Below the pieces are notes generated by a model. The model did no database searches. It was not told where the DNA came from and saw only the letters and a program-made list of their open reading frames with translations. Positions 4,699-27,576 of a DNA stretch of 30,204 nucleotides are shown piece by piece (position 1 is the first letter of the stretch; every line of letters starts with the position of its first letter). The position numbers and the translations under genes were made by a program. Source of the DNA: a virus; IMG/VR virus record IMGVR_UViG_3300046816_000177, positions 1 to 30,204 of that record, one strand, 5' to 3'.

Positions 4699-5936
4699 CC
4701 GGCCTGCCTTCGTTCGCCATACCGGGCGGCGGGAAGCTCGGTGCGCCGCTCGATCGGATGTCGCTGACGATTGGCGGCAAGAACTTCGACTTTTGGACCG
4801 AGGCGGAACTCACCCGCTCGATTGACGGCTACTCGACGGTCTCGTTCTCGGCGCCATTCGAGCCGGAACGGAAGGACTTCAGAGCGACCTTCAAGCCGTT
4901 CTCCTTCCAGCCGGTCACGCTCCTCATCGGTGGGAAGAAGGTCTTCACCGGCACGCTCATCGACATCGACCCGGATGCGGACGCCAACTCCTCGACCGTC
5001 AAGGTCACCTGCTACGCGCGCCCCGCTGTGCTGCACGACTGCGAGCCACCCGCGAGCGCCTATCCGCTCGAGTTCAACGGCCTCGATATCGTCCAGATCG
5101 CTACACAGATTTGCAAGCCATTCGGCTTCACCGCGAGCGTAGAGACGCCGACGATCGCTCGGGACGGGTCGACGATCGACGCCGAGTTCATCCGACGGGC
5201 CGTCCACCGAGGCAAGCGAGGCGGCATCAAGGGCGGCAAGGGCAGCAAGTTCGCACGCCTCGCACTGAACCCGGGCGACAACCCGCAGGAGTTCCTCGCG
5301 GGGCTCGCGAAACAGCGGGGCGTCGTCATCACGGACGACGCCGACGGGAATCTGCTCTTCCGCAACTCGGTCGACGAGGGCAGCCCGGTCGTCACCCTTG
5401 CCGAGGGGCATCAGCCGCTCCTTTCGGTGAAGGCGAACTTTAACCCGCAAGACTATTTCAGCGAGATCACAGCATTTACCCCAGCCGTGCGGAATCGGAA
5501 GGGTGCGAACTACACGCAACCGAACCCGCGGCTGACCGGCGTCGTGCGCCCAACTTCGTTCAAGCCGGACGACACCGACAAGTCGGAAGCGCCCGATGCC
5601 GCGGCGGCCAAGATGGGCCGCATGTTCGGTCAAATGGTCGGCTGGGACGTCGAGGTGCCGACGTTCTTTGATCCGAAGGGCGTCCTCTTCGCTCCGAATA
5701 CGACCATCAAACTGAAGGCGCCACGCGCCATGATCTACTCTGAGACCGAGCTACTCGTGAGGACCGTGAAGCTGCGGCAAATGGCCGACTCCGCTATCTG
5801 TTCGCTCGGCGTCGTGCTGCTAGGGGCTTTCTCGGGAGAGTTCCCAGATTCGTTCCCATGGGACGAGGCGTCCGCGACAGGTCTCGGCGCTGGGTTGAAC
5901 GCCATCCAATCTCTCGCCAGCAAGGCAGGGTTCTGA
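4695..5936 (+). CDS. Baseplate hub protein, Mu gpP-like (gp27/gpD fold expected)
   Basis: A 413-residue protein with a four-base ATGA overlap with the gene before it. The N-terminus (DRMSLTIGGKNFDFWTEAEL, then SIDGYSTVSFSAPFEPER) and the segment VTLLIGGKKVFTGTLIDIDP match Mu-like gpP proteins. So do PLEFNGLDIVQIATQICKPF and the later 'LLFRNS...SPVVTLAEGHQP' stretch. These proteins form the trimeric hub under the tail tube that carries the spike. Its place between gpN-like and gp45-like genes is the Mu order. A Lys/Gly-rich patch (RGKRGGIKGGKGSKFARL, around residues 171-190) looks like an exposed loop. Confidence 0.87.
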   Translation: MTGLPSFAIPGGGKLGAPLDRMSLTIGGKNFDFWTEAELTRSIDGYSTVSFSAPFEPERKDFRATFKPFSFQPVTLLIGGKKVFTGTLIDIDPDADANSSTVKVTCYARPAVLHDCEPPASAYPLEFNGLDIVQIATQICKPFGFTASVETPTIARDGSTIDAEFIRRAVHRGKRGGIKGGKGSKFARLALNPGDNPQEFLAGLAKQRGVVITDDADGNLLFRNSVDEGSPVVTLAEGHQPLLSVKANFNPQDYFSEITAFTPAVRNRKGANYTQPNPRLTGVVRPTSFKPDDTDKSEAPDAAAAKMGRMFGQMVGWDVEVPTFFDPKGVLFAPNTTIKLKAPRAMIYSETELLVRTVKLRQMADSAICSLGVVLLGAFSGEFPDSFPWDEASATGLGAGLNAIQSLASKAGF

Positions 5937-6478
5937 TGGGCCAGATTGGCGAGGTCATCAAGACCGAGAAGAGCACGCTGGACGATGGCTCCGAGCTCGT
6001 CGATGTCGTCGTCGATCCGGGCGGTGGTGCGAATCTGAAGATCGCTCATTTCGCGGATGCCGGCGACGACTCGAAACCCCTGCCGGGAGACTTCTGCGCC
6101 TCCGAGGACGGCGGCGAGGGCACTGGCACTCAGCAGTCGACCGGCTACCACGACGCGAAGAACGCGTCGAAGTCCGCGGAGGGCGAGAAGCGGATCTATT
6201 CGCGCACGCCAGCAGGACTGCCAGCTGCGGAGATCTGGCTCAAGAAGGACGGCACGGTAGAGATCAACGGGCTGCTGATCGGTGGCGGGAAAGCGAAGCT
6301 CGATCCTCTGACGGGCGAGTGGGACTTCAACGGATTGAAGATCGACAAGGACGGGAACCTGACGACGCCTGGAGAGATCACCGCGAAGGATGCGACGCCA
6401 ACAACGGCAGTGAAGCTCTCGACGCATCTTCACGGGACTGGGGTTGGGCCTACTACGCCCCCACAGGGGGGCACGTAG
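5936..6478 (+). CDS. Baseplate spike/assembly protein, Mu gp45-like
   Basis: A 180-residue protein. I chose the ATG at 5936 because it overlaps the stop of the hub gene (TGATG), as elsewhere in this operon. An upstream in-frame ATG at 5858 would add an Arg-rich stretch inside the previous gene. The N-terminal half is the OB-fold-like region (MGQIGEVIKTEKSTLDDGSE). The C-terminal half is a short-repeat beta region (IDKDGNLTTPGEITAKDA) ending in THLHGTGVGPTTPPQGGT. The His-Leu-His at 164-166 is the likely metal-binding tip motif seen in phage central spikes. The protein should pierce the outer membrane on tail contraction. Confidence 0.87.
   Translation: MGQIGEVIKTEKSTLDDGSELVDVVVDPGGGANLKIAHFADAGDDSKPLPGDFCASEDGGEGTGTQQSTGYHDAKNASKSAEGEKRIYSRTPAGLPAAEIWLKKDGTVEINGLLIGGGKAKLDPLTGEWDFNGLKIDKDGNLTTPGEITAKDATPTTAVKLSTHLHGTGVGPTTPPQGGT
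6453..6478 (+). other. Stable hairpin over the spike gene stop codon
   Basis: CTACG (6453-6457) and CCCCC (6458-6462) can pair with GGGGG (6466-6470) and CGTAG (6474-6478) around an ACA loop with a three-base bulge. The arm includes the TAG stop. There is no T-tract, so it is not a standard terminator. It separates the baseplate gene from the inserted endonuclease gene. Confidence 0.45.
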
Positions 6479-6493
6479 TGCTATAACGCGAAT

Positions 6494-6525
6494 GCGCCTC
6501 GCGACGCTGCAAACGTCCGAGGCGC
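6494..6525 (+). other. Inverted repeat in the leader of the HNH gene
   Basis: GCGCCTCG (6494-6501) and CGAGGCGC (6518-6525) form a perfect 8-bp stem, extendable by a T-G and an A-T pair, with a 16-base loop. It lies between the spike stop and the HNH start and just upstream of the likely ribosome binding site (AAAGGA, 6537-6542). Leader hairpins are known to limit expression of some phage homing endonucleases; that role is inferred here. Confidence 0.4.
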
Positions 6526-6551
6526 GTGGCCCACGGAAAGGATTGGTTCCC

Positions 6552-7256
6552 ATGGACAAGGCAACGGTCGCACGCTTCTGGTCTCGGGTCGACAAGAACT
6601 GGGCCGTGCCTGCGCGCGCTCCGCAGCTAGGACCATGTTGGATTTGGAGGGGGAAGACGCGAAAGGACGATCGCGGAATGATGGTCGCGAACGGCAGGGA
6701 GCAACGCGTCTCTCGGATTTCTTGGCAGATCCATGCGGGCCACGCACCAGGCGCGCTGTCCGTTCTGCACAAGTGCGACAATCCAAGATGCGTGAATCCG
6801 CGGCACCTCTTTCTTGGCACAGCATTGGACAACGTTCGAGACATGGACGCTAAGGGCCGCCGAGTGACGGTCGCGATGCGCGGCTCGTCGAACGGTAATT
6901 CGAAGCTCCGTGCTGAGGACGTGATTCGAATTCGCGACCTCTACACCGCTGGCACCACGCAGCCGGTTCTCTGCAAGATGTATGGAATTGCTCAAAGCAG
7001 CGTGTCTCGAATCGTACTGTCCAAAGGATGGCCAGACGTTCTGGCTTCGAAGGCGCCGATCATTCGAGAAAGAAACAAAGCCGCGACGACCGGAGAAGCC
7101 AATCACAACGCGAAGATGACGGCCGCATCGGTCCGAAGAATGCGGGAACGCTTTGGAAACGGCGCCGGCATCGCTCAGCTAGCCAGCGCGTTTTCCCTAA
7201 GCAAGACAAGCACCAGAAAGATCGTTAATCGAACTTCGTGGCGCCACGTGGCCTAA
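6552..7256 (+). CDS. Free-standing HNH homing endonuclease with duplicated C-terminal DNA-binding units
   Basis: A 234-residue protein from the ATG at 6552, preceded by AAAGGA. Earlier in-frame codons only add a stretch overlapping the spike gene. The nuclease core is VLHKCDNPRCVNPRHLFLGT at residues 71-90, followed by N94 and D97. This is the HNH_3-type layout with H73, the Cys pair and the NPRHL motif. The C-terminal part holds two related units, SSNGNSKLRAEDVIRIRDLY (from 112) and GEANHNAKMTAASVRRMRER (from 181). Each is followed by a helix-turn-helix-like segment ending at a Trp, as in modular homing endonucleases. It should nick or cut phage DNA at a specific site and spread the gene. 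It sits between two baseplate genes whose order it interrupts. Confidence 0.9.
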   Translation: MDKATVARFWSRVDKNWAVPARAPQLGPCWIWRGKTRKDDRGMMVANGREQRVSRISWQIHAGHAPGALSVLHKCDNPRCVNPRHLFLGTALDNVRDMDAKGRRVTVAMRGSSNGNSKLRAEDVIRIRDLYTAGTTQPVLCKMYGIAQSSVSRIVLSKGWPDVLASKAPIIRERNKAATTGEANHNAKMTAASVRRMRERFGNGAGIAQLASAFSLSKTSTRKIVNRTSWRHVA

Positions 7257-7696: not shown

Positions 7697-8131
7697 ATGA
7701 CCGACGTGCTCCTCCGACAGACCGACGACGGGGGAGAAATATCCTACGTCAATGGCGCCGCCATCATGTCGGATGGGCTCGAGAGCGCCGTCTATCTCAG
7801 CCTCTTCGGCGGCAACATCGACGATGGCGGCCTGACAGAGGACGACGCGCGGAGCTGGTGGGGCAACGCGATCGAGCCGCTTGAGGAGCGCCGCTACCGA
7901 AGCCAGACGCAGGGCGTCCTCCGGTCCATGCCTGCCATCCCTGCGAACCTCCAAAGGGTGGACGATGCGGTCGGCGCCGATCTCGCGTGGATGCTGGACA
8001 CGAAGCTCGCAACGTTCGTCGGCTCGGCCAGCACCATGCCCGCTATCAACACCGTGAAGATTTCAATCCGCGTCGAGATCGACGGCAAGATCTTCCCGTT
8101 CGAGTTCACAGAACCCTGGCGTAACAAATGA
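7697..8131 (+). CDS. Baseplate wedge protein, Mu gp46-like
   Basis: A 144-residue protein that starts directly after the previous stop (TAAATG). The segment SAVYLSLFGGNIDDGGLTED followed by RSWWGNAIEP is the signature region of Mu gp46-like proteins, where 'LFtd.Ra..dd..... WWGd' is typical. The C-terminus (INTVKISIRVEIDGKIF) fits the expected beta-strands. It is related in role to gpW/gp25-type wedge proteins and should join the baseplate to the tail tube. It overlaps the next gene by four bases (ATGA). Confidence 0.86.
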   Translation: MTDVLLRQTDDGGEISYVNGAAIMSDGLESAVYLSLFGGNIDDGGLTEDDARSWWGNAIEPLEERRYRSQTQGVLRSMPAIPANLQRVDDAVGADLAWMLDTKLATFVGSASTMPAINTVKISIRVEIDGKIFPFEFTEPWRNK

Positions 8132-9324
8132 GCCTCGCTGTCCCCACGACCGCCGAGATTTCGGACACGATCATCGCGCAGCTGGAGTCATCTCTTTCGG
8201 AGACGATTCCGCTGCTCCCGAAGTCGTTCTCCCGCGTGCTCGCCAAGGTGCTGGCTGGCGTCTTCATCCTGCTCTACAAATACGGCGGGTTCATCTTCCT
8301 CCAGCTCTTCGTCGCACACGCGACGATGCGGGAGACGATCGTCAACGGAAAGACGATCCGCCCGCTGGTCGAATGGGGTCGGCTCATCGGAGTAGGCGAT
8401 CCGATAGACGCAACCCTCGCCGAACTGGTCGTCACTGTGACGGTGACCAATCAGGTCGGGAACCTCGATGGCGGCGCGCAGCTCGTGCGAGCCGAGACGG
8501 GCTTCGTCTACGACTCGGTTGCAGCGGTCGCGCTCAGCGCGCCGACCGTCCAGATCACCATCAAGGCCGGCTCCGACCAGGACGGGAACGGCGGGGTCGG
8601 CGCGGTCGGGAACCTGCAACCCGGAGATATCGTTTCCTTTGCGAACCCGCTGCCCAACGTGCAGAGGGACGCTATCGTCCTTTCGCAGGCCGTCACGGCC
8701 GCAGACGCAGAGACCGTCGAGGCGTACAGAGCCCGCATCCTTCGGCGCTTTCAGAGGAAGCCGCAGGGCGGCGCATATGCCGACTATCAGGAGTGGAGCG
8801 ACGGCGTCGCTGGCATCCTGAACGCATACCCCTACGCGGGCAACCCGGGCGAGGTCGACGTCTACATCGAGGCTACGGTGGCCAGCTCTGGCTCTCCTGA
8901 TGGCATCCCGACCGGCGCGCAGCTCATCGCGGTGAACGATGCCATCCAGCTCGATGTCGCTGGGCTCGCGACGAACCGACCGGTGAATGCGGCCGTCAAC
9001 GTGTTGCCGATCACGCGCTCTGGTTTCGACGTCGTGATCTCTGGACTGGTGGCGGACGATCTCCCGACGCTGAAAACGTCCATCGAGACCGGGCTAGACG
9101 AATACCTGAGATCCCGCGAGCCCTTCATCGTCGGACTCTCGGTGCTGCCACGCGACGATCGCATCACGGTCGCGGCACTCGGCGGATTGGTCGACGGCAT
9201 CGTCAGCGCGGCTGGCGGCACATGCACGTCCGTCGGATTCTCCGTCGATGCCGTAGGCCAGACCGCCTACACGCTCGGCAACGGCGAAAAAGCGAAGCTC
9301 ACGATTCCAGCGACCTACATCTAG
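8128..9324 (+). CDS. Baseplate J-like protein, Mu gp47-like
   Basis: A 398-residue protein with ATGA overlap at its start. Typical segments are YGGFIFLQLFVAHATMRETI and VEWGRLIGVGDPIDATLAEL. Further on are GGAQLVRAETGFVYDSVAAV, GNLQPGDIVSFANPLPNVQR, then AETVEAYRARILRRFQRKPQ and ADYQEWSDGVAGILNAYPYA. This is the classical baseplate_J arrangement (arm domain plus core) of wedge proteins that drive baseplate rearrangement before sheath contraction. Length is normal for the family. In Mu the next gene would be gp48; here three other genes intervene. Confidence 0.92.
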   Translation: MSLAVPTTAEISDTIIAQLESSLSETIPLLPKSFSRVLAKVLAGVFILLYKYGGFIFLQLFVAHATMRETIVNGKTIRPLVEWGRLIGVGDPIDATLAELVVTVTVTNQVGNLDGGAQLVRAETGFVYDSVAAVALSAPTVQITIKAGSDQDGNGGVGAVGNLQPGDIVSFANPLPNVQRDAIVLSQAVTAADAETVEAYRARILRRFQRKPQGGAYADYQEWSDGVAGILNAYPYAGNPGEVDVYIEATVASSGSPDGIPTGAQLIAVNDAIQLDVAGLATNRPVNAAVNVLPITRSGFDVVISGLVADDLPTLKTSIETGLDEYLRSREPFIVGLSVLPRDDRITVAALGGLVDGIVSAAGGTCTSVGFSVDAVGQTAYTLGNGEKAKLTIPATYI

Positions 9325-10787: not shown

Positions 10788-11528
10788 TTAGCGACAATTG
10801 ACGCCGCCGGATTCACAGCAGATTTGCCGCTTCTGCACGAAGCGTGAGGCGTCGAATCCGCAAGAATAGTAGCCGAGTCCGCCATCGGAGTTCGAGTCAG
10901 CATTCCACTGCACCAGAGTGTTACCCCACCATCCTGTTTCACCGCATGCAGGCAGCTGCCCCGTTGGAGGGCACGGACTTTTCCAACATTTCAGCCAACC
11001 ATTGCGGTCGTCGCCATAGGCAGGTGGTCCCGCCGCGGCGTTCACCATACCGACGTAGTCGCAACTAAAACCGGGTGGCCATGACTTCGGCGGTGGACAG
11101 GAATTGTCCAGCACCGGGCACGTCGCGAAATAGATGAAGCTTGGGTACAAGGTCGGCGCGGCGACCGTTCCTCCGCTTCCTCCAGCACCGCCCGTCCCGA
11201 CGACTCCGCCCGTCCCAGCGATCGCCCCGCCATTCCCAATCGTGCCGCCCGTGGCTGCCCCTCCGCTTCCCTGGCTCCCTCCAGCCTCGACGACATCGCC
11301 GCCCGCTCCGTGGTCGCCGCCTGACGAATAGCCTCCAGGGGGCCATGTAGCGCCCCCTGAGGAGGTCGAAGCGTCTCCAGCACCGAGCCGCGCGGGCGAG
11401 CCGCCAGTGCCTACGTAGGTGGCGCTTTCCCCTCCCGTCCCCTGGAGCCTTGCGGTCACCTCCGACGGGGACGCCCCGCCACACGCGACCAGAAGGACAG
11501 CTCCGAACCCGCCAAGCAAGAGCTTCAT
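10788..11528 (-). CDS. Gly-rich, Cys-rich secreted lipoprotein (moron candidate)
   Basis: A 246-residue protein from the ATG at 11528. A TTG at 11537 would add three residues. The GGAGG at 11531-11535 sits only two bases before the ATG, so the exact start is uncertain. The N-terminus is a lipoprotein signal peptide: MKLLLGGFGAVLLVACGG, lipobox LVAC with C16. Residues about 25-125 form a low-complexity linker of TGG/GTGG/SGG units. The C-terminal ~120 residues hold ten Cys and several Trp (for example GWLKCWKSPCPP, RQICCESGGVNC), implying a disulfide-bonded outer-surface domain. This architecture is common in cell-surface proteins of Polyangia. It is the only minus-strand gene within the structural region, so it may be expressed from the lysogen, for example for surface change or exclusion. 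The function is unknown. Confidence 0.8.
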   Translation of the reverse strand: MKLLLGGFGAVLLVACGGASPSEVTARLQGTGGESATYVGTGGSPARLGAGDASTSSGGATWPPGGYSSGGDHGAGGDVVEAGGSQGSGGAATGGTIGNGGAIAGTGGVVGTGGAGGSGGTVAAPTLYPSFIYFATCPVLDNSCPPPKSWPPGFSCDYVGMVNAAAGPPAYGDDRNGWLKCWKSPCPPTGQLPACGETGWWGNTLVQWNADSNSDGGLGYYSCGFDASRFVQKRQICCESGGVNCR

Positions 11529-11581
11529 TTCCTCCAATGGTCCGCACGCTTCCGATCCGCGTCAACTGAACGCCCGGCTAC

Positions 11582-14617: not shown

Positions 14618-15577
14618 ATGACTGCGCCGCTCGTTGAAACATTCACCGCCGGATCCCCTGCGACCTGGACGCCGAACGCCGCCGCCACGTCGTTTTTCCT
14701 CCAGGCATGGGGACCCGGTGGCGGTGGCGGCGGCGGTAAGACTGGCGCGACGTCCACGGTCAGGCAGGGCGGCACGGGTGGCGGCGGTGGCGCTTACTTC
14801 GAGGTGATGATTACCGACGCGACGAAGATCGCCGCCATCATCGCCTTGGGAGCCTACACGGTTACGACCCCAGGGGGAGCGGCGGGCGGCCCGGTCAGCA
14901 CGGCAGGCACGAGTGCGACGACGCCGTGCAGTGTCGTCAATGGTACCGACATTCTGATCTCTGCGTTCGGCGGCGGCGGCGGAGCGGGCGGCGCCGCAAG
15001 CGGAGCGAAGTGTGGCGGATCCGGCGGCGGATGCACGGCGGTCGGGGTCGTCGGCACAACGGCTGCCGTGGCCGGCGGTGGCTCAAACACTGCCAACCTA
15101 AACGGTGTCGGGTATGAGGGTGCAGGATGCACGACTGGTGCCGTCGGTAACCCGGGCTGTTTCGGCGGCGCTGCGGGCGGTGGCTGCGTGACGACGGCGG
15201 GCACTTCGTTCGCTGGAGGAGCGTCGCTCCTCGGTGGTGGTGGTGGTGGTGCGGGCGGCGGCTGCACTTCGAGCAACGGCAACGTCGCATCCTCGGCGGG
15301 TGGCTTCGCCGGTGCTCGCACCGATGGAGCTACCTCTGGGAATGGCGGCCTCGCCGGCACGACGGCGGGCGGCCTCGGCGGTACTGGCGCAGCGGGCGAC
15401 AACACGAAGGGCGGGGCAGGCGGCGGGGGAGGTGGCCCGAGCGCTGCTGGCACGGGTGGTGCTGGTGGCCCGGGTGGTATTCGAGGCGGCGGAGGCGGTG
15501 GTGGCGGCGGTGGAATTACCGGCGGAGTCGGAGGAGTCGGTGGGGCTTCCTACATCTCCATCACGACGACGTTTTGA
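14618..15577 (+). CDS. Polyglycine-rich tail adhesin-type protein 1
   Basis: A 319-residue protein. The first ~100 residues are a folded module (LVETFTAGSPATWTPNAAAT, then FFLQAWGPGGGGGGG and AYFEVMITDATKIAAIIALG) of a type common in phage 'glycine-rich domain' fibre proteins. From about residue 115 to the end it is dominated by Gly runs separated by short Ala/Thr/Ser-rich spacers. In the S16 gp38 adhesin, Gly runs pack as a polyglycine II sandwich that presents variable receptor-binding loops; a similar fold is likely here (inference from composition). The inter-run spacers would be the specificity loops. The next gene is a second protein of the same kind. Confidence 0.82.
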   Translation: MTAPLVETFTAGSPATWTPNAAATSFFLQAWGPGGGGGGGKTGATSTVRQGGTGGGGGAYFEVMITDATKIAAIIALGAYTVTTPGGAAGGPVSTAGTSATTPCSVVNGTDILISAFGGGGGAGGAASGAKCGGSGGGCTAVGVVGTTAAVAGGGSNTANLNGVGYEGAGCTTGAVGNPGCFGGAAGGGCVTTAGTSFAGGASLLGGGGGGAGGGCTSSNGNVASSAGGFAGARTDGATSGNGGLAGTTAGGLGGTGAAGDNTKGGAGGGGGGPSAAGTGGAGGPGGIRGGGGGGGGGGITGGVGGVGGASYISITTTF

Positions 15578-15587
15578 GTGATCCAAG

Positions 15588-16619
15588 ATGTCCACGTTTG
15601 GAATCCCGATCGGTTGGACGAAGGTTCGCGAGACCATTTACTCGGCGAACGATACATGGGCGCCAAATGGGCGGACGTTGCTGGTCGACGTCGAGGCCGT
15701 AGGCTGCGGCGGATCGGGCGGCGGTGGCGGTGCTGATGTCAATCAATTTGGTTCTGCCGGCGGCGCGGGTGCTCGCGTTCGTCGTCGATTCTTCCTCACG
15801 TCTCTGACCGCGACGGTAGCGATCACGTGTCAGGCCGCTCCTACGGGGGCCGCTGCGACCGCAGATGGCACGGCAGGCGGCTACGCTGCATTCGGAGCCT
15901 ACGTCACTGCATACGGCGGCGGTGGTGGCTCGGGCAGCGGTAGCGGGCTTGGCGGCGGCGCGGGCGGTGGCTGGATGGGGGCTGGTGGCACGGTCAACAC
16001 CGGCATCGGCGGTGCTCCGAGCATGGCACCCGTTGGCGGCGCCGGCATCGACAACATTGGATTCGGCGGTGGTGGTAATCGAGGTGCAGCTCAGGTCTGG
16101 GCGCGTGGTGCGGTGTGGGGCGGTCCGAGCGGCGGCTTCGCGACTTCAGGTCAGCCCGACACCGCGTATCAAGGCGCTCGCGGCTTCCTTGGTCCTGGCG
16201 GTGGCGGCGGCGGTGGTTCGGTCAACGGCAATCCCACTCAAGGGCAGGCCGGCGGCAGCTCCGGTCCGTGGACGGCAGCTAAACCCGTCGCCGACCCGTC
16301 CCGACTCGGCGGTGGCGGTGCCGGCGGTGTCGGCACGACGGGCGCCGATGGCACCGGGGGCGCCAATGGGGACGGCTTCACGCTCGGCGCTGGCGGCGGC
16401 GGTGGCACCTACAACACCGGTGGTACGGGCGGCAAGGGAGCCTCCGGCGGCTATCCTGGCGGCGGAGGTGGCGGCGGTGGATCGAGCGCTACGACGGGCG
16501 GCGCAGGCGGCTCGGGCGGCGGCTCACAGGTGCGTGTCACCGAGTGGGGGCCGCCCGCCTCCGATGCCTGGATGCCGCTTCAACAACGGCAGCAGCTCCG
16601 CACCCTTCTCTGCATGTGA
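15588..16619 (+). CDS. Polyglycine-rich tail adhesin-type protein 2
   Basis: A 343-residue protein, related in plan to the one before it but not a simple copy. The N-terminal module is IPIGWTKVRETIYSANDTWA then PNGRTLLVDVEAVGCGGSGG. From about residue 100 on come Gly runs with spacers carrying aromatic and charged residues (AQVWARGAVWGGPSGG, DTAYQGARGFLGPGG, RLGGGGAGGVG). The C-terminus returns to VRVTEWGPPASDAWMPL. The expected fold is a polyglycine II sandwich adhesin. Two adjacent genes of this class suggest two receptor specificities or a heteromeric tip. Confidence 0.82.
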   Translation: MSTFGIPIGWTKVRETIYSANDTWAPNGRTLLVDVEAVGCGGSGGGGGADVNQFGSAGGAGARVRRRFFLTSLTATVAITCQAAPTGAAATADGTAGGYAAFGAYVTAYGGGGGSGSGSGLGGGAGGGWMGAGGTVNTGIGGAPSMAPVGGAGIDNIGFGGGGNRGAAQVWARGAVWGGPSGGFATSGQPDTAYQGARGFLGPGGGGGGGSVNGNPTQGQAGGSSGPWTAAKPVADPSRLGGGGAGGVGTTGADGTGGANGDGFTLGAGGGGGTYNTGGTGGKGASGGYPGGGGGGGGSSATTGGAGGSGGGSQVRVTEWGPPASDAWMPLQQRQQLRTLLCM

Positions 16620-16628
16620 AAGCAAACC

Positions 16629-17096
16629 ATGGGACGACTTTACACAGCGGTTTTTCAGGCCGTGGCCGTCACGGCCGCACAGGATCTGATCTCGTTGCTC
16701 ACGACGGCAGCGAGCCCGGTGCGCGTGCACTACTTCTCGTGCGGGCAGTCGTCGGACTTCGGCGACGCCCAAGACGAACTTCTCCGCATTCGGATCCAGC
16801 GCGGAATGACGACGGTCGGCAGCGGCGGGACCGTTCCGGCCGTGAACCCGATCGATGCTGCCAACACGATGGCCGCCGCCACGGTCGCGCGCGCGAACGA
16901 CACGACGGCGGCGAGCGCTGGCACGATCACACAAATCTGGGAAGAGTGTTTCAACGTGCGAGCGGGCTACATCTTCATGCCGACTCCGGAGATGCGTCCG
17001 ACCATCGCGGTGAGCACGCGGCTCGCATTCAACCTGGTAGCCGCCCCAGCCGATTCTCTGACGATGAGCGGCACGATCGTCTTCGAGGAATACTGA
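16629..17096 (+). CDS. Conserved phage virion-type protein (unknown role)
   Basis: A 155-residue protein. The pattern is one I recognise from phage genomes without an assigned function: MGRLYTAVFQAVAVTAAQDL at the start, HYFSCGQSSDFGDAQDELLR, RIQRGMTTVGSGGTVPAVNP, and a C-terminal strand pair (LTMSGTIVFEEY). The single-domain size and beta-rich C-terminus fit a small capsid- or fibre-decorating protein. It lies between the polyglycine genes and the repeat protein. Confidence 0.72.
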   Translation: MGRLYTAVFQAVAVTAAQDLISLLTTAASPVRVHYFSCGQSSDFGDAQDELLRIRIQRGMTTVGSGGTVPAVNPIDAANTMAAATVARANDTTAASAGTITQIWEECFNVRAGYIFMPTPEMRPTIAVSTRLAFNLVAAPADSLTMSGTIVFEEY

Positions 17097-17106
17097 GAAA
17101 CGCGCG

Positions 17107-19425
17107 ATGAGCTACGTTTTCCGCCGCCCGTTCTTTCGCTCGCAACGCGCGCCCATCATCGCCGCGCTGACGGCGGCGTCTGGGTTCACCGGTAGCGCGG
17201 ATGCGGCGATCTCGCCATTCGCCTGCACGGCGAGCGGCACCGTCACCTTCGACGGTTCCGCATCTGCCGCGATGTCCGCGTTTGCCGCCAGCGGGGTGGC
17301 CGCCGAAGCTTTCACTGGCACGGGGAACTCTGCTGAGAGCCCATTTGCCTGCTCGAGTTCAGGCGCCGAGGAATTCACCGGGACCGGTTCTGCGGCGTGC
17401 TCCTCATTCGCCGCCGATGCGAGCGGGATCGCTGCGGACTTCTTCGGGGCCGCAAGCTCCGCCATTAGCTCTTTCGCATGCGATGCGACTGCCGCGGAGA
17501 CGTTCTCCGGATCGGCAAGCGCCGCCCTGTCGAGCTTCGCCTGCACGGCCTCCGGGGCTGAGGAATTCGCATGCACGACAACGGCGGCCCTATCTCCATT
17601 TGCCTGCACGGCCTCGGCCAGCGAAGCCTTCGACGGCTCGGCCTCGGCAGCTCTCTTCCCATTCGCCGCGACCGCAGCGGGCTCCGAGGAGTTCAGCTGC
17701 ACGGCGAACGCCGCAGCGTCACCCTTCGGCTGCAGCGCCTCTGCGGAGGAGACGTTCTCGGCGAGCGCGACAGCAGCCCTGGCGTCGTTCGACTGCACGG
17801 GGGACGCGAGCGAATCATTCTCCTGCACGGCTAGCGCGGCAACTTCGCCGTTTGATTGCGATGCCTCGGGTAGCCGGTCGGAGTTTTTCGGCTCCGCTGA
17901 TGCGGCATTCTCACCGTTCGCATGTGCTGCCTCCGGTTCGGAAATTTTCGACGGATCCGCCTCGGCTGCCTGCTCTTCGTTCGATGCAAGCGCTACGGGC
18001 GCCGAATCCTTCGAAGGGAGCGCGAGTGCGGCCTGCTTGCCATTCGACGCGGATGGTACGGGGGCGACTGGCGTCAGCTTCACGAGCACTGCGTCGTGCG
18101 CCGTTTCACCGTTCGCAGCCGATGCTACGGCCTCGGAGATCTTCGACGGATCCGCGTCAGCCGTATTCGCTCCTTTCGCCTGTGCGGCGTCGGGCGCCGA
18201 GACGTTTTCCGGAGCCGCCTCGGCGGCATGTTCGCCGTTCGCGGCAACGGCCTCGGGATCCGAAAGCTTCACCGCCACTGCCTCAGCGGCTTGCCAGCCC
18301 TTTGATGCCGATGCGACTGGCACCGCCCAGGCGGGCTTCACCTGCACGGCCTCGTGCGCCGCGTCTCCATTCGCTGCGAGCGCAACCGGTGAGGAAATCT
18401 TTACCGGTTCGGCTGCCGCCGCCATTGCACAGTTCGCATGCACCGCTTCCGGAGCGGAGGACTTCGACGGATCCGCGACCGCGGCATGCGTGCCATTCGA
18501 CGCGGCTGCCACCGGGGCGGTGGGGACGAGCTTTACGAGCACGGCGTCGGCTGCCGTCTCGCCCTTCGCCGCGGCAGCGTCAGCCAAGGAGACGTTCGCC
18601 TCGACGGCAACGGCTGCCGTTCAGCCCTTCGCCTGCACGGTCGCAGCCCTCGAGACGTTCACCGGGACCGGCTCGGTCGCTTCCCAGCGGTTCGCCTGCG
18701 CGGCAGCGGGTATCAACCTCCTCGCGATCACGAGTTCGGGATCGGCCGCGTTGTCGCGATTCGCTTGCTCTGGATCGGGCGCGGAGGCGTATTCCTCGAC
18801 GGGCGCGGCGGCTGTAAAGCCATTCGGCGCGACCGCTACGGCGAAAGAGACCTTCTCGGGTGCCGCTATGGCCGTCGAGCAGCCCTTCGCCGCGGCAGCC
18901 TCGGGGGTCTACGATCCGTCCGTCCACGCGACCGGGAGCGCGGCTGCCTCGCGCTTCGGTGCGACGGCGACAGGGGCCGAATCGTTCACGAGCTCGGCGA
19001 CAGCCTCGTGCTCGCCGTTCGGCGCGCATGCAACGGCATCGCAGGGGATCAGCGGTTCGGCCTCCGTGGCCGTTCAGCCGTTCGCGTGCCTGGCGGACGC
19101 GGCGCTCGTCTTCGCCTGCACGGGTTCCGCCTCGACGGCGAGCTTCGCAGCATCGACCGCTGCCCTCGAATCGTTCTACGCTTCCGGCTCCGCCGCGCTG
19201 CACCCGTTCGGCTGCTCTGCTGGCGCCCACAACTTCTCGCCGATACTGCCCGTCCCCGGGCATCACTATCCGCTCGGCGGCAAGGCGGAGGCTCTCCGGC
19301 TCCTCGGCGGCGCACCGGTCGAGCGGATTGTCTTCGGTGAACGAGTCCACAAACTGACGCTTGGCGGCGCAGAGGTCGCTCCAATCTTCCTCGGTGGGCC
19401 GCCCGCGCGAAAGAAAACCGTATGA
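17107..19425 (+). CDS. Giant 21-residue-repeat virion-type protein, unknown family
   Basis: A 772-residue protein. After a 23-residue basic N-terminus (MSYVFRRPFFRSQRAPI), residues 24-705 divide without remainder into 32 units. Most are 21 residues; longer ones are 22-23. A representative unit is SGAETFSGAASAACSPFAATA: Phe at position 6, Gly near 8, Cys or Ala at 14, Pro-Phe at 16-17, Cys or Ala at 19. The final 67 residues are different, with several LGG turns (HYPLGG, LRLLGG, KLTLGG, IFLGG). The strict period and alternating small/hydrophobic residues suggest a beta-solenoid or beta-rich fibre shaft, possibly with Cys ladders. Its position among adhesin genes supports a fibre role. I know no family match. 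Confidence 0.82.
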   Translation: MSYVFRRPFFRSQRAPIIAALTAASGFTGSADAAISPFACTASGTVTFDGSASAAMSAFAASGVAAEAFTGTGNSAESPFACSSSGAEEFTGTGSAACSSFAADASGIAADFFGAASSAISSFACDATAAETFSGSASAALSSFACTASGAEEFACTTTAALSPFACTASASEAFDGSASAALFPFAATAAGSEEFSCTANAAASPFGCSASAEETFSASATAALASFDCTGDASESFSCTASAATSPFDCDASGSRSEFFGSADAAFSPFACAASGSEIFDGSASAACSSFDASATGAESFEGSASAACLPFDADGTGATGVSFTSTASCAVSPFAADATASEIFDGSASAVFAPFACAASGAETFSGAASAACSPFAATASGSESFTATASAACQPFDADATGTAQAGFTCTASCAASPFAASATGEEIFTGSAAAAIAQFACTASGAEDFDGSATAACVPFDAAATGAVGTSFTSTASAAVSPFAAAASAKETFASTATAAVQPFACTVAALETFTGTGSVASQRFACAAAGINLLAITSSGSAALSRFACSGSGAEAYSSTGAAAVKPFGATATAKETFSGAAMAVEQPFAAAASGVYDPSVHATGSAAASRFGATATGAESFTSSATASCSPFGAHATASQGISGSASVAVQPFACLADAALVFACTGSASTASFAASTAALESFYASGSAALHPFGCSAGAHNFSPILPVPGHHYPLGGKAEALRLLGGAPVERIVFGERVHKLTLGGAEVAPIFLGGPPARKKTV
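17176..19221 (+). repeat. 32 tandem protein-level repeats (about 63-69 bp each)
   Basis: The units diverge at DNA level but stay in frame, and all keep the F...G.A.AA..PF layout. Units 15, 19 and 22 share an extended 23-residue form (TGATGVSF, TGTAQAGF, TGAVGTSF), which repeats at intervals of four and three units. That suggests higher-order duplication blocks. Confidence 0.88.
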
Positions 19426-19718
19426 CCTCAGTCGTTCAAGACCCGAGCGGGATCATCAAATACACCGGCACGTGGAAGCTGCGCTTTCCCGAGGGGGACA
19501 TCGCGGATTCGACGTGGGCGGTCACCGACAGCGATGACCTGCCGAGCGATGACCTCGTGATTTCCGGCAACGGCTTCAGTGGTCTCGACGTCGCGTGGAC
19601 GGTCACGTGCGCGGGGGACGTGGTCGTCGGCGCCGTCTACGACGTGACCAATCACGTCATCATGGCGGACGGGCAGGAAGACGACTGGACGATCCGCTAC
19701 ACGATTCGACAGCGATAG
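19422..19718 (+). CDS. Small phage protein of Ig-like type
   Basis: A 98-residue protein overlapping the repeat protein stop by four bases (ATGA). The pattern is DPSGIIKYTGTWKLRFPEGD, IADSTWAVTDSDDL, ISGNGFSGLDVAWTVTCAGD and VYDVTNHVIMADGQEDDWTI. It is of a kind seen in many phage genomes, with 'dp..vldY..dW...L..gdtI..StW' and a C-terminal strand after 'TNhv.t..Gq.d'. It is predicted to be a compact beta-sandwich. The exact role is unknown; it is probably virion-associated. Confidence 0.75.
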   Translation: MTSVVQDPSGIIKYTGTWKLRFPEGDIADSTWAVTDSDDLPSDDLVISGNGFSGLDVAWTVTCAGDVVVGAVYDVTNHVIMADGQEDDWTIRYTIRQR

Positions 19719-19731
19719 AAGGAGAGTTTCC

Positions 19732-20391
19732 ATGCTTCCATTCCTCCAACAGTTCCGCACTTACCTCGACGCGATTCAGCCCGGGCTCTTCAATGCCTCG
19801 TTGGCTGGGCTCCTGTTCGCCGCGTTGTGGCTGCTCCGCAAGTTCAAGCCGCTGTTCTTCGCGAAGCTGCCGCCGTCGCTCCAGGCATGGCCAGCGCTCG
19901 CCACCGGGGCAGTGATTGCGGCGCTCTCGGCCTCGACGGACGGGAACCTCGGAGGCGCTGTGCTGAACGCACTCGGCATGGCGTTCACGGGTCTGCTCTC
20001 TGGCGTCATGGCGAGCGGGATTCATCGCACCCTGAAAGAGAGCGCACTCCCGTACGGGACTTCGGACGTGCCTCCGAAGAAGTCACCGACGCCGCTCGTC
20101 GGCATCGTGTGGCTGGTGGCGCTGCTTGGGGTCTGTGGGTGCGGCTCGTTCCTGCATGTCGCCGATCCGACGATCGACGACGACATCAGCAAGCTTTGCT
20201 CGACGCTCGGAACCGAGAAGACGGCAGCCATCCAAGCCGAGGCTGACAAGCAAAAACTTTCCTTCGATGACGTCAAGCACCTATTCGACGTCGCTTGCGC
20301 ACTCCGCATCAAGCAAGGTCTCGAGCCCGCCAAAGCGGCTGGGCTTGCGGCGGCGCGGCATGAACGCGAGAGCGATGCGGGGACGCCATGA
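19732..20391 (+). CDS. Multi-TM (holin-like) protein joined to a lipoprotein-like domain
   Basis: A 219-residue protein with a strong ribosome binding site (GAAGGAGAG). It has hydrophobic segments near residues 21-36, 53-68 and 74-95, as in holins. These are followed by a hydrophilic hinge (YGTSDVPPKKSPTP) and a fourth hydrophobic stretch, LVGIVWLVALLGVCGCGSF. That stretch looks like a lipoprotein signal, with C137 in a V-C-G-C context. The remaining ~80 residues are soluble and helical with two Cys (C155-type KLCSTLG and DVACALRIKQG). Either this is a genuine fusion of a holin-like membrane domain with a lipoprotein-like domain, or two products arise from one frame. It opens the lysis-type cassette and overlaps the peptidase gene by four bases. 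Confidence 0.72.
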   Translation: MLPFLQQFRTYLDAIQPGLFNASLAGLLFAALWLLRKFKPLFFAKLPPSLQAWPALATGAVIAALSASTDGNLGGAVLNALGMAFTGLLSGVMASGIHRTLKESALPYGTSDVPPKKSPTPLVGIVWLVALLGVCGCGSFLHVADPTIDDDISKLCSTLGTEKTAAIQAEADKQKLSFDDVKHLFDVACALRIKQGLEPAKAAGLAAARHERESDAGTP

Positions 20392-21209
20392 GAGGTCTTG
20401 GTTACGTCCGCGACGTTCCGGATGCTCGCGATCATCTGTTCGCAGCTCATCCAGCATCGGCGGCGTCCATCATCTCGTTCGCAACGAACGATCGGGACGA
20501 CGTCAATCCGAAGAACCAGCTTCAAACGTCGGCATGCTGCGGCAACGGCAGCACCAAGATCTTGCAGCTCTCCTCAATGAAAGCGGGCATTGACTGCCCG
20601 GAGCTTTCCGCACCCTTCGCCTACCGGATGGCGTTGAACCTCGACGGAGTGAACACCGACGAAGGCACGCAAGTCCGACAGGTCGTGAAGGGCATCATGA
20701 ACATGGGAGCGTGCCCCGAGACCGACATGCCCATGACCGCGAAGACCGACATCCTCGCGCAGCCTTCCTTCGCTGCCGAGCATGACGCTTTCGATCGGCG
20801 CGGGCTTCGCGGCTACCACCGAATTGCCGACGGTGATCTCGACGGCGTCCGTCGCGCGCTTGCGGCGGGCTTCGGGCTCGTCGCGGGCTGGGACGTCACC
20901 GAGGCGTTCTGCTCGGCCGATGGCAAGGACGTGATCGGCGCACAGATCGGGCCGATGGCGGGCGGCCACTGCATGGGGATCGTGGGCTACGGCTCCTCGT
21001 CCGACTGGGAGACGCGATACTCGGCGTTCCGCCCGTCGAAGACCTACCCGCTGCTCGGTCGCATCATCGGATCGTGGGGCGGTGATGTGGAGGTCTCGGG
21101 AGAACCGCCGACCCATTACGGCTACAACGGTCGGATCTTCGTCGCTCCGGAATTCCTGGAGCAGGCCACAGACATTTGGGCGCTGGACGTCAGAGGAGAC
21201 GCATCGTGA
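20388..21209 (+). CDS. Papain-like C1 family cysteine peptidase
   Basis: A 273-residue protein without a signal peptide. The active-site segment is NQLQTSACCGNGS: Gln44 precedes Cys50 by six residues, exactly the papain Gln19-Cys25 spacing. The His motif is GGHCMGIVGYG with His194, equivalent to papain H159-AVGYG. The Asn motif, normally NSWG, reads GSWG at 228-231, so the third catalytic position is Gly. The C-terminal YGYNGRIFVAPEFL matches the final strands of the fold. It sits between a holin-like gene and a lipoprotein gene, so a role in cell wall or envelope protein cleavage at lysis is possible, as is virion or host protein processing. Confidence 0.82.
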   Translation: MRGLGYVRDVPDARDHLFAAHPASAASIISFATNDRDDVNPKNQLQTSACCGNGSTKILQLSSMKAGIDCPELSAPFAYRMALNLDGVNTDEGTQVRQVVKGIMNMGACPETDMPMTAKTDILAQPSFAAEHDAFDRRGLRGYHRIADGDLDGVRRALAAGFGLVAGWDVTEAFCSADGKDVIGAQIGPMAGGHCMGIVGYGSSSDWETRYSAFRPSKTYPLLGRIIGSWGGDVEVSGEPPTHYGYNGRIFVAPEFLEQATDIWALDVRGDAS

Positions 21210-21684: not shown

Positions 21685-21966
21685 ATGTCTGCCTCGCAAT
21701 CGCTGAAACGAGCCTTGATCTGCCTGCGCGCCGTGATCGCGAAATATCCATCGGACCAAGACTTGCGCGAGGCTGAGACCGTTTTTGTGGAAGAGATTGC
21801 CGAGCTCACTCCACGCGACCCGTTCGCGATTCCTACCCCAGTCGTCCGCCCGTCGCGCCAGAGCTCCGCAGGGTTCCGCGCTGCCACTGAAGATCTAAAG
21901 GCAGCAAGCGAAGCCGCGAAGGCGAAGACGCGGCGGAAATCGTTGCCTCCGAAAAGGGCCACATGA
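21685..21966 (+). CDS. Unknown small protein of the lysis-type cassette
   Basis: A 93-residue protein. The N-terminal half is helical (SQSLKRALICLRAVIAKYPS, then EAETVFVEEIAELTP), followed by a Pro-rich hinge and a basic Lys/Arg-rich C-terminus. No signal or TM segment is seen. It overlaps the following gene by ATGA, so the two are probably co-translated. I do not recognise it. Confidence 0.65.
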   Translation: MSASQSLKRALICLRAVIAKYPSDQDLREAETVFVEEIAELTPRDPFAIPTPVVRPSRQSSAGFRAATEDLKAASEAAKAKTRRKSLPPKRAT

Positions 21967-22664
21967 CCGCGCAATTCATTGACGACCTGCTGACCCCGGT
22001 TTCTGTCGATGCGCTGCTCCTGGCGCTGCACGGCGGCTACGTTCGCGTCATGGGCGCAGCAACCGACAAGGTGCCATGCCTTGCCGCACTCGGTGCGCAG
22101 CTCTGCCTCGAGAGCGGGAACGGGCAGCTGGCGCATCGGTTCAACTGGGGAAACCGGAAACGCCCAGCGGACTGGGATGGACTCTTCACTCGTTTTCAGT
22201 GTGACGAAATATTCGACCGACAGACTGCGGATCGCGCGAAGACGCTCGGCCCATGCGCGGTCACGTTGTGGCGTGGCGGCCCGCTGTATCGCGTCGTACT
22301 CTTCCCGCCTCACCCCTGGTCAGAATTCGTGGCGTTCGTGACGGCGGATGAGGGAGCCGCCGACTATATCTCCCTGCTGGCGTGCTCCGACCGATACCGG
22401 GCCGCGTGGCACTGCGCGTACGCCGGGGATGCCGCGGGCTTCTCGCTCGCCTTGGGGAGGGCCAAGTATTACACCGCGGACGTCGAGCCCTACACCAAGG
22501 GCCTGGTGTCGATCGCGGCGCGTATCCTGCCCGCGTGTGAGCGCATTGCGAACGGGCTCGATCACGGGCTCACGGACGAGGATCGCGCGTTCATTGAGGC
22601 AACTGTCTACGAGACGATCCTAGACCATGGCGATAAAACCACGCCTCTCCCTCCAGCAGCATGA
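21963..22664 (+). CDS. Peptidoglycan hydrolase, glucosaminidase-like endolysin
   Basis: A 233-residue protein. The core segment AALGAQLCLESGNGQLAHRF followed by NWGNRK has the 'E-S/T-G-x-G ... H-x-x-N-x-GN-x-K' pattern of glucosaminidase/transglycosylase lysozyme-like folds, with Glu50 as likely catalytic acid. Further on, ALGRAKYYTADVEPYTKGLV matches the 'gYyTad..Y...v' segment of such enzymes. It lacks a signal peptide, so it would need a holin or other release. It should cut peptidoglycan glycan chains at lysis, or act as a tail lysin. Its neighbours in the cassette favour endolysin. Confidence 0.75.
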   Translation: MTAQFIDDLLTPVSVDALLLALHGGYVRVMGAATDKVPCLAALGAQLCLESGNGQLAHRFNWGNRKRPADWDGLFTRFQCDEIFDRQTADRAKTLGPCAVTLWRGGPLYRVVLFPPHPWSEFVAFVTADEGAADYISLLACSDRYRAAWHCAYAGDAAGFSLALGRAKYYTADVEPYTKGLVSIAARILPACERIANGLDHGLTDEDRAFIEATVYETILDHGDKTTPLPPAA

Positions 22665-25602: not shown

Positions 25603-25853
25603 TGCGACCTCGCTAGTCGCGCGGCGCTGGTCCCGCGGACCTTCCGGTAGACCCGTCGGCACAGCTCGAGAAACTCCGCTTCCGTCGTGACCACGCCCTT
25701 GCGCTCCTCAATCGAGGACGCATCGACCATGGCAAGCGCGGCGACGAGGAGAGATTGCATGCGGACCGCGCGCGGCACTTCTCCGAACCGGTGGGTGAGC
25801 TGCATGAGAAGCTCATCGAAGCCGTGCCGCATCTTGGTGACTCGCTCAGCCAT
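25599..25853 (-). CDS. Unknown small helical protein
   Basis: An 84-residue protein overlapping the end of the ATPase gene by eight bases. It is predicted all-helical: MRHGFDELLMQLTHRFGEVP, AVRMQSLLVAALAMVDASSI and TEAEFLELCRRVYRKVRGTS. No motif is recognised. The tight coupling to the HerA-like ATPase suggests a partner or accessory subunit, by context only. Confidence 0.68.
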   Translation of the reverse strand: MAERVTKMRHGFDELLMQLTHRFGEVPRAVRMQSLLVAALAMVDASSIEERKGVVTTEAEFLELCRRVYRKVRGTSAARLARSQ

Positions 25854-27576
25854 GGACGAGCCTTTCGTTCGCAGTCATTCCGTCGTTGCCGCCCGTTACG
25901 AGCATCAACGTTCTCAGCTTGCCCGCTGCGTTGCGAATGCCTCCGGAGGTCACGGAATAGCCGCACTCCTCGGCGGCCCGGGACAGGGATACCGGGCGCG
26001 GGTACGCCTGCACGACGACGGCAAGAATCTCCCTCTCCGCCTTCGGCAACTGTCCATACCAGTGCGTCGCGAGATCGGGCCCGACCGGCAGCGAAGGGAC
26101 CGGGCCGAGCGCCGTCAGCCCTTCCGGCGTCGCCGTCATCGCATCGTTGCCTCCGTCGATGTAGCCGAGCGACCGGAGCGAGCCAGCGGCGTTCCGCATG
26201 CCTCCGCTCTTCGCCGAGTAGCCGGCGATCATCGCCGCTTGGGTGAGGCTGAGGGTTCCGTGCTGCACGAGGGTCGCGAGGATCTGACGCTCGGCCTTGG
26301 GGAGTCCGGTAGACGCGCCGTTCGTGCGTTTCGCATCGTTCCGAGCGACCGCATCCGTCACGGAATGGTGGGTGTTGCGCGGGCCCATGGGAATGCCAGG
26401 GGGCCGCATCGAGAGCCGCGAGACCCCCTTCTCGCCGGCACCTGCGGCCGTCGCGCACCGTGTCCGGTATTCGTTCATGAGCCGTCCGACCTCGAACTTT
26501 GCGCCCTCGACGAGGCCGCCAATCGCTTGGAGCTGACCGAAGACGCTCTCGTGCAGTCCGTCCAGCAGCTTCCGGTCGAAGACGGGCACCTCGACGCGGA
26601 CAATCTCGGGGGGCTGTCCCGCCGCGGGCTTCTTGGCGATCTCTCCCCTCAGCTTCGCGATCTCCGCTCGGAGCGCCTTTGGGTCGTCCGCCTTGGCCCT
26701 CTCGATGGTCTCGACCATCGCCTTGCTGAGCTCCGTCAGATCGATCGGCTGGAGCTTCTTCTGTGAGAACGCCTTCACGCCCACCTTTGGGGTCTGCGAC
26801 GTGTCGAGACTCTCGATCGGTAGGATCCGGACGACTTTCGAGATCTTGAGCCACTGGGGACTCCATACGTGGGGCGCTCCGACCTCGAGCGTTGGCAGGA
26901 TGTCGGCGAGCTTCCCGTCGAAGCCCTTGTCGCTCAACCAATACTGGAGAGCCTTCCGCTCCTGCGGGCCCGTCATCTGGAAGGCAAACACGCATTCTGC
27001 CTGGTTCAGTGCCTTCTTTGAGACCTCCTGGGGCCGCTGGGAGAGGAAGCTGACCCCGATGCCGTGGGGCCGCCCCTGCTTGGCGATGCGCTGGAATTCG
27101 TGAAGCATCCGCTCTTCGCCACGTTGCTGGTTTTCCGGAATGTAATCCTGGCACTCCTCGAGCACGAGGTGCACGGCGCCGGGGGACGCCTTCTTTCGTT
27201 GGAAGAACCGCTGTCCGAACGCGGTAGCGAAGCGCGTACGCTCCGAGTCGAGCATCTGGCTGACGTCGATGACGATGCTGGTGCCGCGGTCGACGATGAT
27301 GTCCGCTACGAGCGCCCCTGCTGTCGGCTCGAGCGGGATGTCTCCGTAGAGGCCGCCTAGCACCGGTATGTCGAAGCTCTTTGGGCCGAGCCGGAGCCCG
27401 GGCCAGCCGCCGGCGCCATCGAGGATGACCACCTGAGCGCCAGCGTGGAGCATCTGCTCGACCATGCGCTTGCAGCCGAACGTCTTACCGCTCCCCGTGC
27501 GGCCCATCCATGCGAGTTTCTGGGTGACGGCGTCGAGCGGAAGAACGAGGTCGGTGGAGATGCGGAGCGTTTTCAT
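25846..27576 (-). CDS. HerA/FtsK-like P-loop ATPase with duplicated C-terminal winged helices
   Basis: A 576-residue protein preceded by AAGGA. Walker A is GRTGSGKT (25-32); Walker B is HLVLEECQD (136-144) with the Glu pair expected in HerA-type enzymes. Then come RIAKQGRPHGIGVSFLSQRP (163-182), the sensor/arginine-type region, and a C-terminal lid. These enzymes form hexameric rings that translocate along double-stranded DNA. Residues 290-315 are coiled coil. The C-terminus has two copies of a winged-helix-like unit: LPKAERQILATLVQ...AGYSAKSGGMRNAAG (425-482) and LPKAEREILAVVVQ...CGYSVTSGGIRNAAG (510-569), each ending GGND(A/G)MTA. No NurA-type nuclease is adjacent. Likely roles are DNA transport or processing in replication or recombination. 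Confidence 0.87.
   Translation of the reverse strand: MKTLRISTDLVLPLDAVTQKLAWMGRTGSGKTFGCKRMVEQMLHAGAQVVILDGAGGWPGLRLGPKSFDIPVLGGLYGDIPLEPTAGALVADIIVDRGTSIVIDVSQMLDSERTRFATAFGQRFFQRKKASPGAVHLVLEECQDYIPENQQRGEERMLHEFQRIAKQGRPHGIGVSFLSQRPQEVSKKALNQAECVFAFQMTGPQERKALQYWLSDKGFDGKLADILPTLEVGAPHVWSPQWLKISKVVRILPIESLDTSQTPKVGVKAFSQKKLQPIDLTELSKAMVETIERAKADDPKALRAEIAKLRGEIAKKPAAGQPPEIVRVEVPVFDRKLLDGLHESVFGQLQAIGGLVEGAKFEVGRLMNEYRTRCATAAGAGEKGVSRLSMRPPGIPMGPRNTHHSVTDAVARNDAKRTNGASTGLPKAERQILATLVQHGTLSLTQAAMIAGYSAKSGGMRNAAGSLRSLGYIDGGNDAMTATPEGLTALGPVPSLPVGPDLATHWYGQLPKAEREILAVVVQAYPRPVSLSRAAEECGYSVTSGGIRNAAGKLRTLMLVTGGNDGMTANERLVHG

Follow-up and report, generated by a model that had tools for sequence, protein, structure and literature searches.

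A 32-unit repeat protein encoded beside a conserved jelly-roll-like protein in an uncultured phage: a candidate rod of a modular virion appendage

An uncultured contractile-tailed phage (IMGVR_UViG_3300046816_000177) encodes a 772-residue protein, P0001, that consists almost entirely of one short repeated unit, and this raises the question of what such a protein is and which part it might play in the virion. Here, the window refers to the whole stretch that was analysed, positions 1 to 30,204 of this record. The initial annotation of the window had counted 32 units in P0001 and had suggested a new fibre or surface-binding fold. Taken as a whole, the observations are best explained if P0001 forms the structural rod of a fibre on the virion surface, belonging to a modular appendage in which it would be docked by its N-terminal tag, a reading that we favour with some reserve.

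An old repeat with two predicted strands per unit

The genes and segments considered here all lie on the plus strand of the window:

14618-15577, plus strand: second Gly-rich protein, probable fibre component, judged from sequence only
15588-16619, plus strand: Gly-rich protein upstream of X, weakly similar in sequence to phrog_863 (tail fiber assembly)
16629-17096, plus strand: protein X, 155 residues, conserved and jelly-roll-like, proposed hub (relatives, AF2, Foldseek)
17107-19425, plus strand: P0001, 772-residue repeat protein, proposed fibre rod (ORF, periodicity, unit split)
17107-17184, plus strand: basic N-terminal tag of P0001, residues 1-26, MSYVFRRPFFRSQRAPIIAALTAASG, proposed docking peptide (tag alignment with loci L042 and L083)
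17185-19233, plus strand: 32 tandem units, residues 27-709, each of two half-repeats (11+10) (self-identity, unit split)
19234-19422, plus strand: C-terminal LGG-rich segment, residues 710-772 (translation)
19422-19718, plus strand: 98-residue protein of the Gp77 family (PF23148, fiber-tail adaptor; Pfam), whose start overlaps the stop of the P0001 gene

The ORF and its 32 units were confirmed: the self-identity of P0001 peaks at 0.376 at a lag of 21 residues, against a maximum of 0.20 over 500 shuffles (lags 5-59), and the sequence splits into 24 units of 21 residues, five of 23, two of 22 and one of 20. "Perfect-phase" units of 21-23 residues, as first described, is thus slightly too strong a wording for a range of 20-23. 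The repeat drawn there is real, but each unit is made of two half-repeats, F-x-[GCSA]-[ST]-[AG]-[ST]-A-A-x-S-P (11 residues) followed by F-[ADG]-[CA]-x-A-[ST]-[GA]-x-E-x (10 residues). Phe occupies position 12 in all 32 units and position 1 in 28 of them. Positions 1/3/5/7 and 12/14/16/18 hold Phe or small, non-polar residues, positions 2/4/6 and 15/17 are for the most part polar, chiefly Ser or Thr, and Glu is found at position 20 in 21/32 units. Such an in/out alternation within both halves is the hallmark of beta-strands that bury one face and expose the other. The units are flanked, as had been noted, by a basic N-terminus (net charge +4) and an LGG-rich C-terminus.

Cys residues occur at four unit positions (16/32, 7/32, 5/32 and 2/32). 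The "alternating Cys" of the initial annotation fall at its positions 14 and 19, our positions 9 and 14, where Cys is found in 7/32 and 16/32 units, the latter position holding either Cys or Ala throughout. The Cys ladders that had been imagined from them found no support, since Cys and Ala replace each other freely (16:16 at the main site) and Cys is sparse or missing in relatives such as L164; Cys thus seems to be one more small buried residue. A disulphide- or Cys-ladder repeat protein was rejected on the same grounds, Cys being conserved at no fixed unit position and varying among relatives. A functional amyloid of the curli/FapC type was also rejected: the Asn/Gln ladders of 19-22-residue repeats are absent from P0001, which has only 4 Asn and 9 Gln among its 772 residues.

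We then asked how the array has evolved. The units have an amino-acid identity of 0.444, while at conserved four-fold sites the identity of their third bases is 0.302, composition alone predicting 0.299, and adjacent units are no closer in sequence than units far apart. Synonymous saturation together with a kept protein pattern indicates that the array is old and selected at the protein level: P0001 is a true repeat protein, under selection, that had not been classified before. The tandem arrangement, taken alone, could have suggested that slippage expanded the repeat recently, no function being maintained; this is contradicted by synonymous similarity at the level of composition and by neighbours that are no more alike than distant units, and we regard it as extremely improbable. 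P0001 could also be a flexible, low-complexity Ala/Ser spacer devoid of a fold, as its composition (Ala 28%, Ser 16%, Ala+Ser 43%) and the low confidence of its AF2 model would allow. The Phe at positions 12 and 1, the strict in/out alternation, the fixed unit length and the conservation of the protein pattern despite saturated synonymous sites all speak against such a spacer, which we consider improbable.

For structure prediction, AF2 was given seven P0001 units with an alignment of five rows, all of them units of P0001 itself. The model shows two regular strands per unit at modest confidence (mean pLDDT 59, pTM 0.50). Foldseek found no significant match to it (E at least 0.44); the weak matches were mostly beta-solenoids, the best of them being SufB/SufD, HpmA, the bactofilin BacA and the FapC amyloid, none of which has sequence similarity to P0001. 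The suggestion of a "new fold" was thus not borne out, as this low-confidence model resembles ordinary beta-solenoids. The length of the units lies within the ~18-30 residues per coil of beta-solenoids, and their alternating in/out side chains with stacked core residues are those of the same class. Altogether, the repeat is probably a beta-solenoid, and at this pLDDT its fold is only moderately supported. The two beta-strands of each 21-residue unit would make up a single coil of a parallel beta-solenoid, whose interior would be filled by stacked Phe and tiny residues and whose exterior would carry Ser/Thr. Beta-solenoids rise by 0.48 nm per coil; at that rise, the 32 coils (32 x 0.48 nm) would build a rod of about 15 nm.

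Relatives of the repeat and their neighbours

P0001 gave no profile or sequence match above cut-off in Pfam, PHROGs or the PDB, nor any match in 50,697 phage records (tblastn, blastn), in agreement with the initial annotation, which knew of no described phage protein with this unit. A first scan of viral contigs with the whole of P0001 returned no relatives, and these were found only by conserved-column patterns drawn from its units. The repeat is present in six other uncultured phages (L159, L160, L161, L162, L164 and L168). A profile built from the units finds L159-L162 at E 1e-32 to 1e-44, and its two further matches among 9,662 ORFs of the sampled loci (E 0.08 and 0.26) are at best on par with a shuffled decoy. 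L164 and L168 were added by direct reading of the sequence. Neither of the observations that the initial annotation had named as counting against its reading was made: no characterised repeat family was hit, and the unit pattern is conserved in all six. A degenerate DNA pattern and the Gp77 gene used as bait gave no match, the baseplate-wedge gene used as bait recovered phages devoid of the repeat, and in the literature we found no description of the repeat, of X or of the module.

The array occurs in several fusions. It sits behind an N-terminal domain homologous to proteins encoded upstream of X in L164 (E 1e-62) and L160 (E 1e-13), and is likewise fused behind an N-terminal domain in L168; the identification of these three domains as Laminin_G_3 was tested and rejected. 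In L161, a small C-terminal beta-rich domain follows the array in the same polypeptide (weak LtfC-like match, E 0.07). In the other phages, the gene directly after the array encodes a protein of ~100-130 residues, which belongs to the Gp77 family in the window, that of the fiber-tail adaptor of podophage GP4 (PF23148), to the BppU N-terminal domain family (BppU_N, PF10651) in L162, L159 and L168, and to no assigned family in L160 and L164. Repeatedly, the array thus has a beta-rich body on one side and a small adaptor-like protein on the other, the placement expected of a rod. The repeat protein itself matches neither Gp77 nor BppU_N, but the presence of such genes next to the array suggests that adaptors of this kind serve to mount the rod; the C-terminal end of the rod would meet the small Gp77/BppU_N-type adaptor encoded next.

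Two known systems can be compared. BppU and the carbohydrate-binding baseplate accessory proteins of mycobacteriophages have a similar layout, with a small Ig-like adaptor, exchangeable glycan-binding beta domains and a conserved core; the text of that study nowhere mentions repeats or solenoids (PMC13252515). The tandem BACON domains of crAss-like phages are also repeats of a phage protein linked to carbohydrate binding (PMC6949934), but they are whole domains, unlike the 21-residue two-strand units of P0001, for which Pfam gives no match.

Protein X and the slot downstream of it

The gene of protein X lies directly upstream of that of P0001. Relatives of X were confirmed in viral contigs (n=135), whereas only two X loci were found in bacterial genome contigs and only four in the 50,697 phage records, all four from one uncultured podovirus type. 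In the sequenced actinomycete Spongiactinospora sp. TRM90649 (L154), a prophage-like region encodes X together with a tagged protein rich in Ala, and L154 is a possible laboratory system. X of the window is 61-65% identical to those of L042, L041 and L081. Its AF2 model (74 sequences; pLDDT 93.8, pTM 0.87) is a single jelly-roll-like beta-sandwich, a fold common to uncharacterised phage proteins such as LIMEzero F4N9W0 (Foldseek). The structure search gave no informative solved structure, the PDB matches being poor jelly-roll or TNF-like overlaps (TM <0.4); X is called jelly-roll because of these weak matches to jelly-roll capsid and TNF-like proteins. Among the six repeat relatives, X is recognisable in L160 only (E 5e-4), where it is followed by an apiosidase-like protein (PF13204) with a basic N-terminus and then by the SPF-repeat protein.

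Across 75 non-redundant X loci, 36 have, directly or closely downstream of X, a gene whose product has a basic N-terminus followed by a periodic body (z >5), with a period that is usually 18-24 residues or double. About half of the loci lack a clearly periodic next gene. As a control, 22/637 other ORFs of the X loci are periodic, several of them being shifted members of the same tagged class. The bodies are mostly unrelated in sequence, and none pairs with the P0001 body at E 1e-3. The N-terminal tags do align: VFRRPFFRSQRAPIIAALTAASG of the window and VYRRRWFAPPRAAIVAVLTAAQSG of L042 reach z 8.5 against z 2.5 for the bodies, and the window and L083 reach z 6.3 against z -0.3.

On the other side of X, upstream genes frequently end in a basic-hydrophobic C-terminal tag (24/62 vs 10/723), the tag regexes having been written post hoc on sequences already seen, so that Fisher values overstate the significance. 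Otherwise unrelated proteins share this short tag, as seen in L083:4495-5970, L042:7225-7974 and the window protein at 15588-16619, which ends in QQRQQLRTLLCM. Families encoded upstream of X include Laminin_G_3, minor tail and virion structural proteins, while BppU_N near X is generally rare (2/40 records, both weak). A single protein of L083 bears both tags around an apiosidase-like PF13204 domain, and in L069 and L151 such domains are enclosed within tagged repeat proteins. The tagged repeat proteins of L056, L061, L066, L068, L051 and L077 end in RPxxGxTxRP repeats, a recurrent C-terminal module.

Kept tags, swapped bodies and embedded apiosidases suggest that the tags are docking peptides and that the bodies can be exchanged, glycans being the likely target. 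P0001 is better viewed as one of a group of rods that share a pitch but not a sequence and that occupy a conserved slot downstream of X. The rod would be docked by its basic N-terminal tag, and the simplest candidate for a conserved docking partner is the jelly-roll X; an arrangement in which interchangeable rods are mounted on a hub by their tags is plausible. We tentatively extend this to an adhesin-display module of a general kind, not described before, in uncultured phages, in which X might be a hub binding short terminal tags and any body, be it a same-pitch solenoid rod of unrelated sequence, a lectin or an apiosidase-like enzyme, could be exchanged by gaining a basic N-terminal or an RR-x-LLxR-type C-terminal tag. 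In such a mix-and-match appendage, phages would swap rods and lectin-like or glycosidase bodies with one another but retain X and the docking tags, and an appendage built in this way probably reaches and engages host surface glycans.

Conversely, the array may itself be a multivalent binding surface rather than a spacer, its exposed Ser/Thr and Glu faces binding glycans or other surfaces. Indeed, the outward faces form regular Ser/Thr ladders, punctuated by the Glu at position 20, and no other binding domain is recognisable in the P0001 sequence. However, the array is merely attached to a separate domain in L160 and L164, and other arrays flank an enzyme in L069 and L151, which suits a scaffold; moreover, the filling of the slot by sequence-unrelated arrays suits selection on length and pitch. 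We therefore find a binding array unlikely and retain the rod as the preferred reading.

Location on the virion and significance

In the window, the module lies downstream of the tape-measure, hub and baseplate-wedge genes and is followed by the Gp77 gene and a weak holin match, so that P0001 is encoded among tail, fibre and lysis genes, as a tail fibre would be. The proposal of a fibre protein draws support from this fibre-like context, from the predicted all-beta units of two strands and from the conserved relatives. The picture is mixed among relatives, several of which have the module flanked by capsid or portal genes on one side and by the tape-measure gene on the other. It is possible, though on balance doubtful, that the fibre belongs to the capsid or neck and not to the tail, X decorating the head or neck with the tagged proteins radiating from it. 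Genes flanking the module match portal, capsid, protease and terminase families; in G006 the portal (2560-3225) and capsid (4994-5824) genes precede X (7835-8290), in G010 the capsid (39322-40161), X (about 36346-36801) and tape-measure (30398-31000) genes are all on the minus strand, and in MW202742 X is downstream of the portal and putative major capsid genes. Against a capsid or neck position stand the order of genes in the window, where tape-measure, hub and wedge come first and a fiber-tail adaptor comes next, and the presence in L162, L159 and L168 of BppU_N, a baseplate protein family. The rod may be attached to the head, the neck or the tail.

Other genes of the window deserve mention. 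The weak holin match (19732-20391) is next to papain-like peptidase-like (20388-21209, plus strand) and glucosaminidase-like (21963-22664, plus strand) ORFs, and from their sequences these probably form the lysis region. Within the tail module, the product of a reverse-strand ORF (10788-11537) is a lipoprotein-like secreted protein rich in Gly, Ser and Thr, of a style that we take to be that of Myxococcota; this ORF is a possible lysogenic-conversion gene and host clue. An HNH-endonuclease-like gene (6444-7256, plus strand) between baseplate genes overlaps the preceding gene and, judged from sequence only, looks like a homing insertion. Finally, a HerA/DUF87-like ATPase (Pfam E 1e-5) is encoded on the minus strand at 25846-27576; its C-terminal part contains two winged-helix-like segments that resemble each other.

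In cultured phages, X and the repeat family are missing altogether or nearly so, and in dozens of related phages the slot of P0001 holds same-pitch rods of unrelated sequence. If our reading is true, evolution replaces the sequence of the rod encoded in a single gene slot but keeps its pitch (18-24 residues per coil) and its architecture, and the slot after X would be a natural experiment on the requirements of a beta-solenoid. Docking through short tags, an idea directly testable with two small proteins, would explain how host-recognition parts are swapped among uncultured phages.
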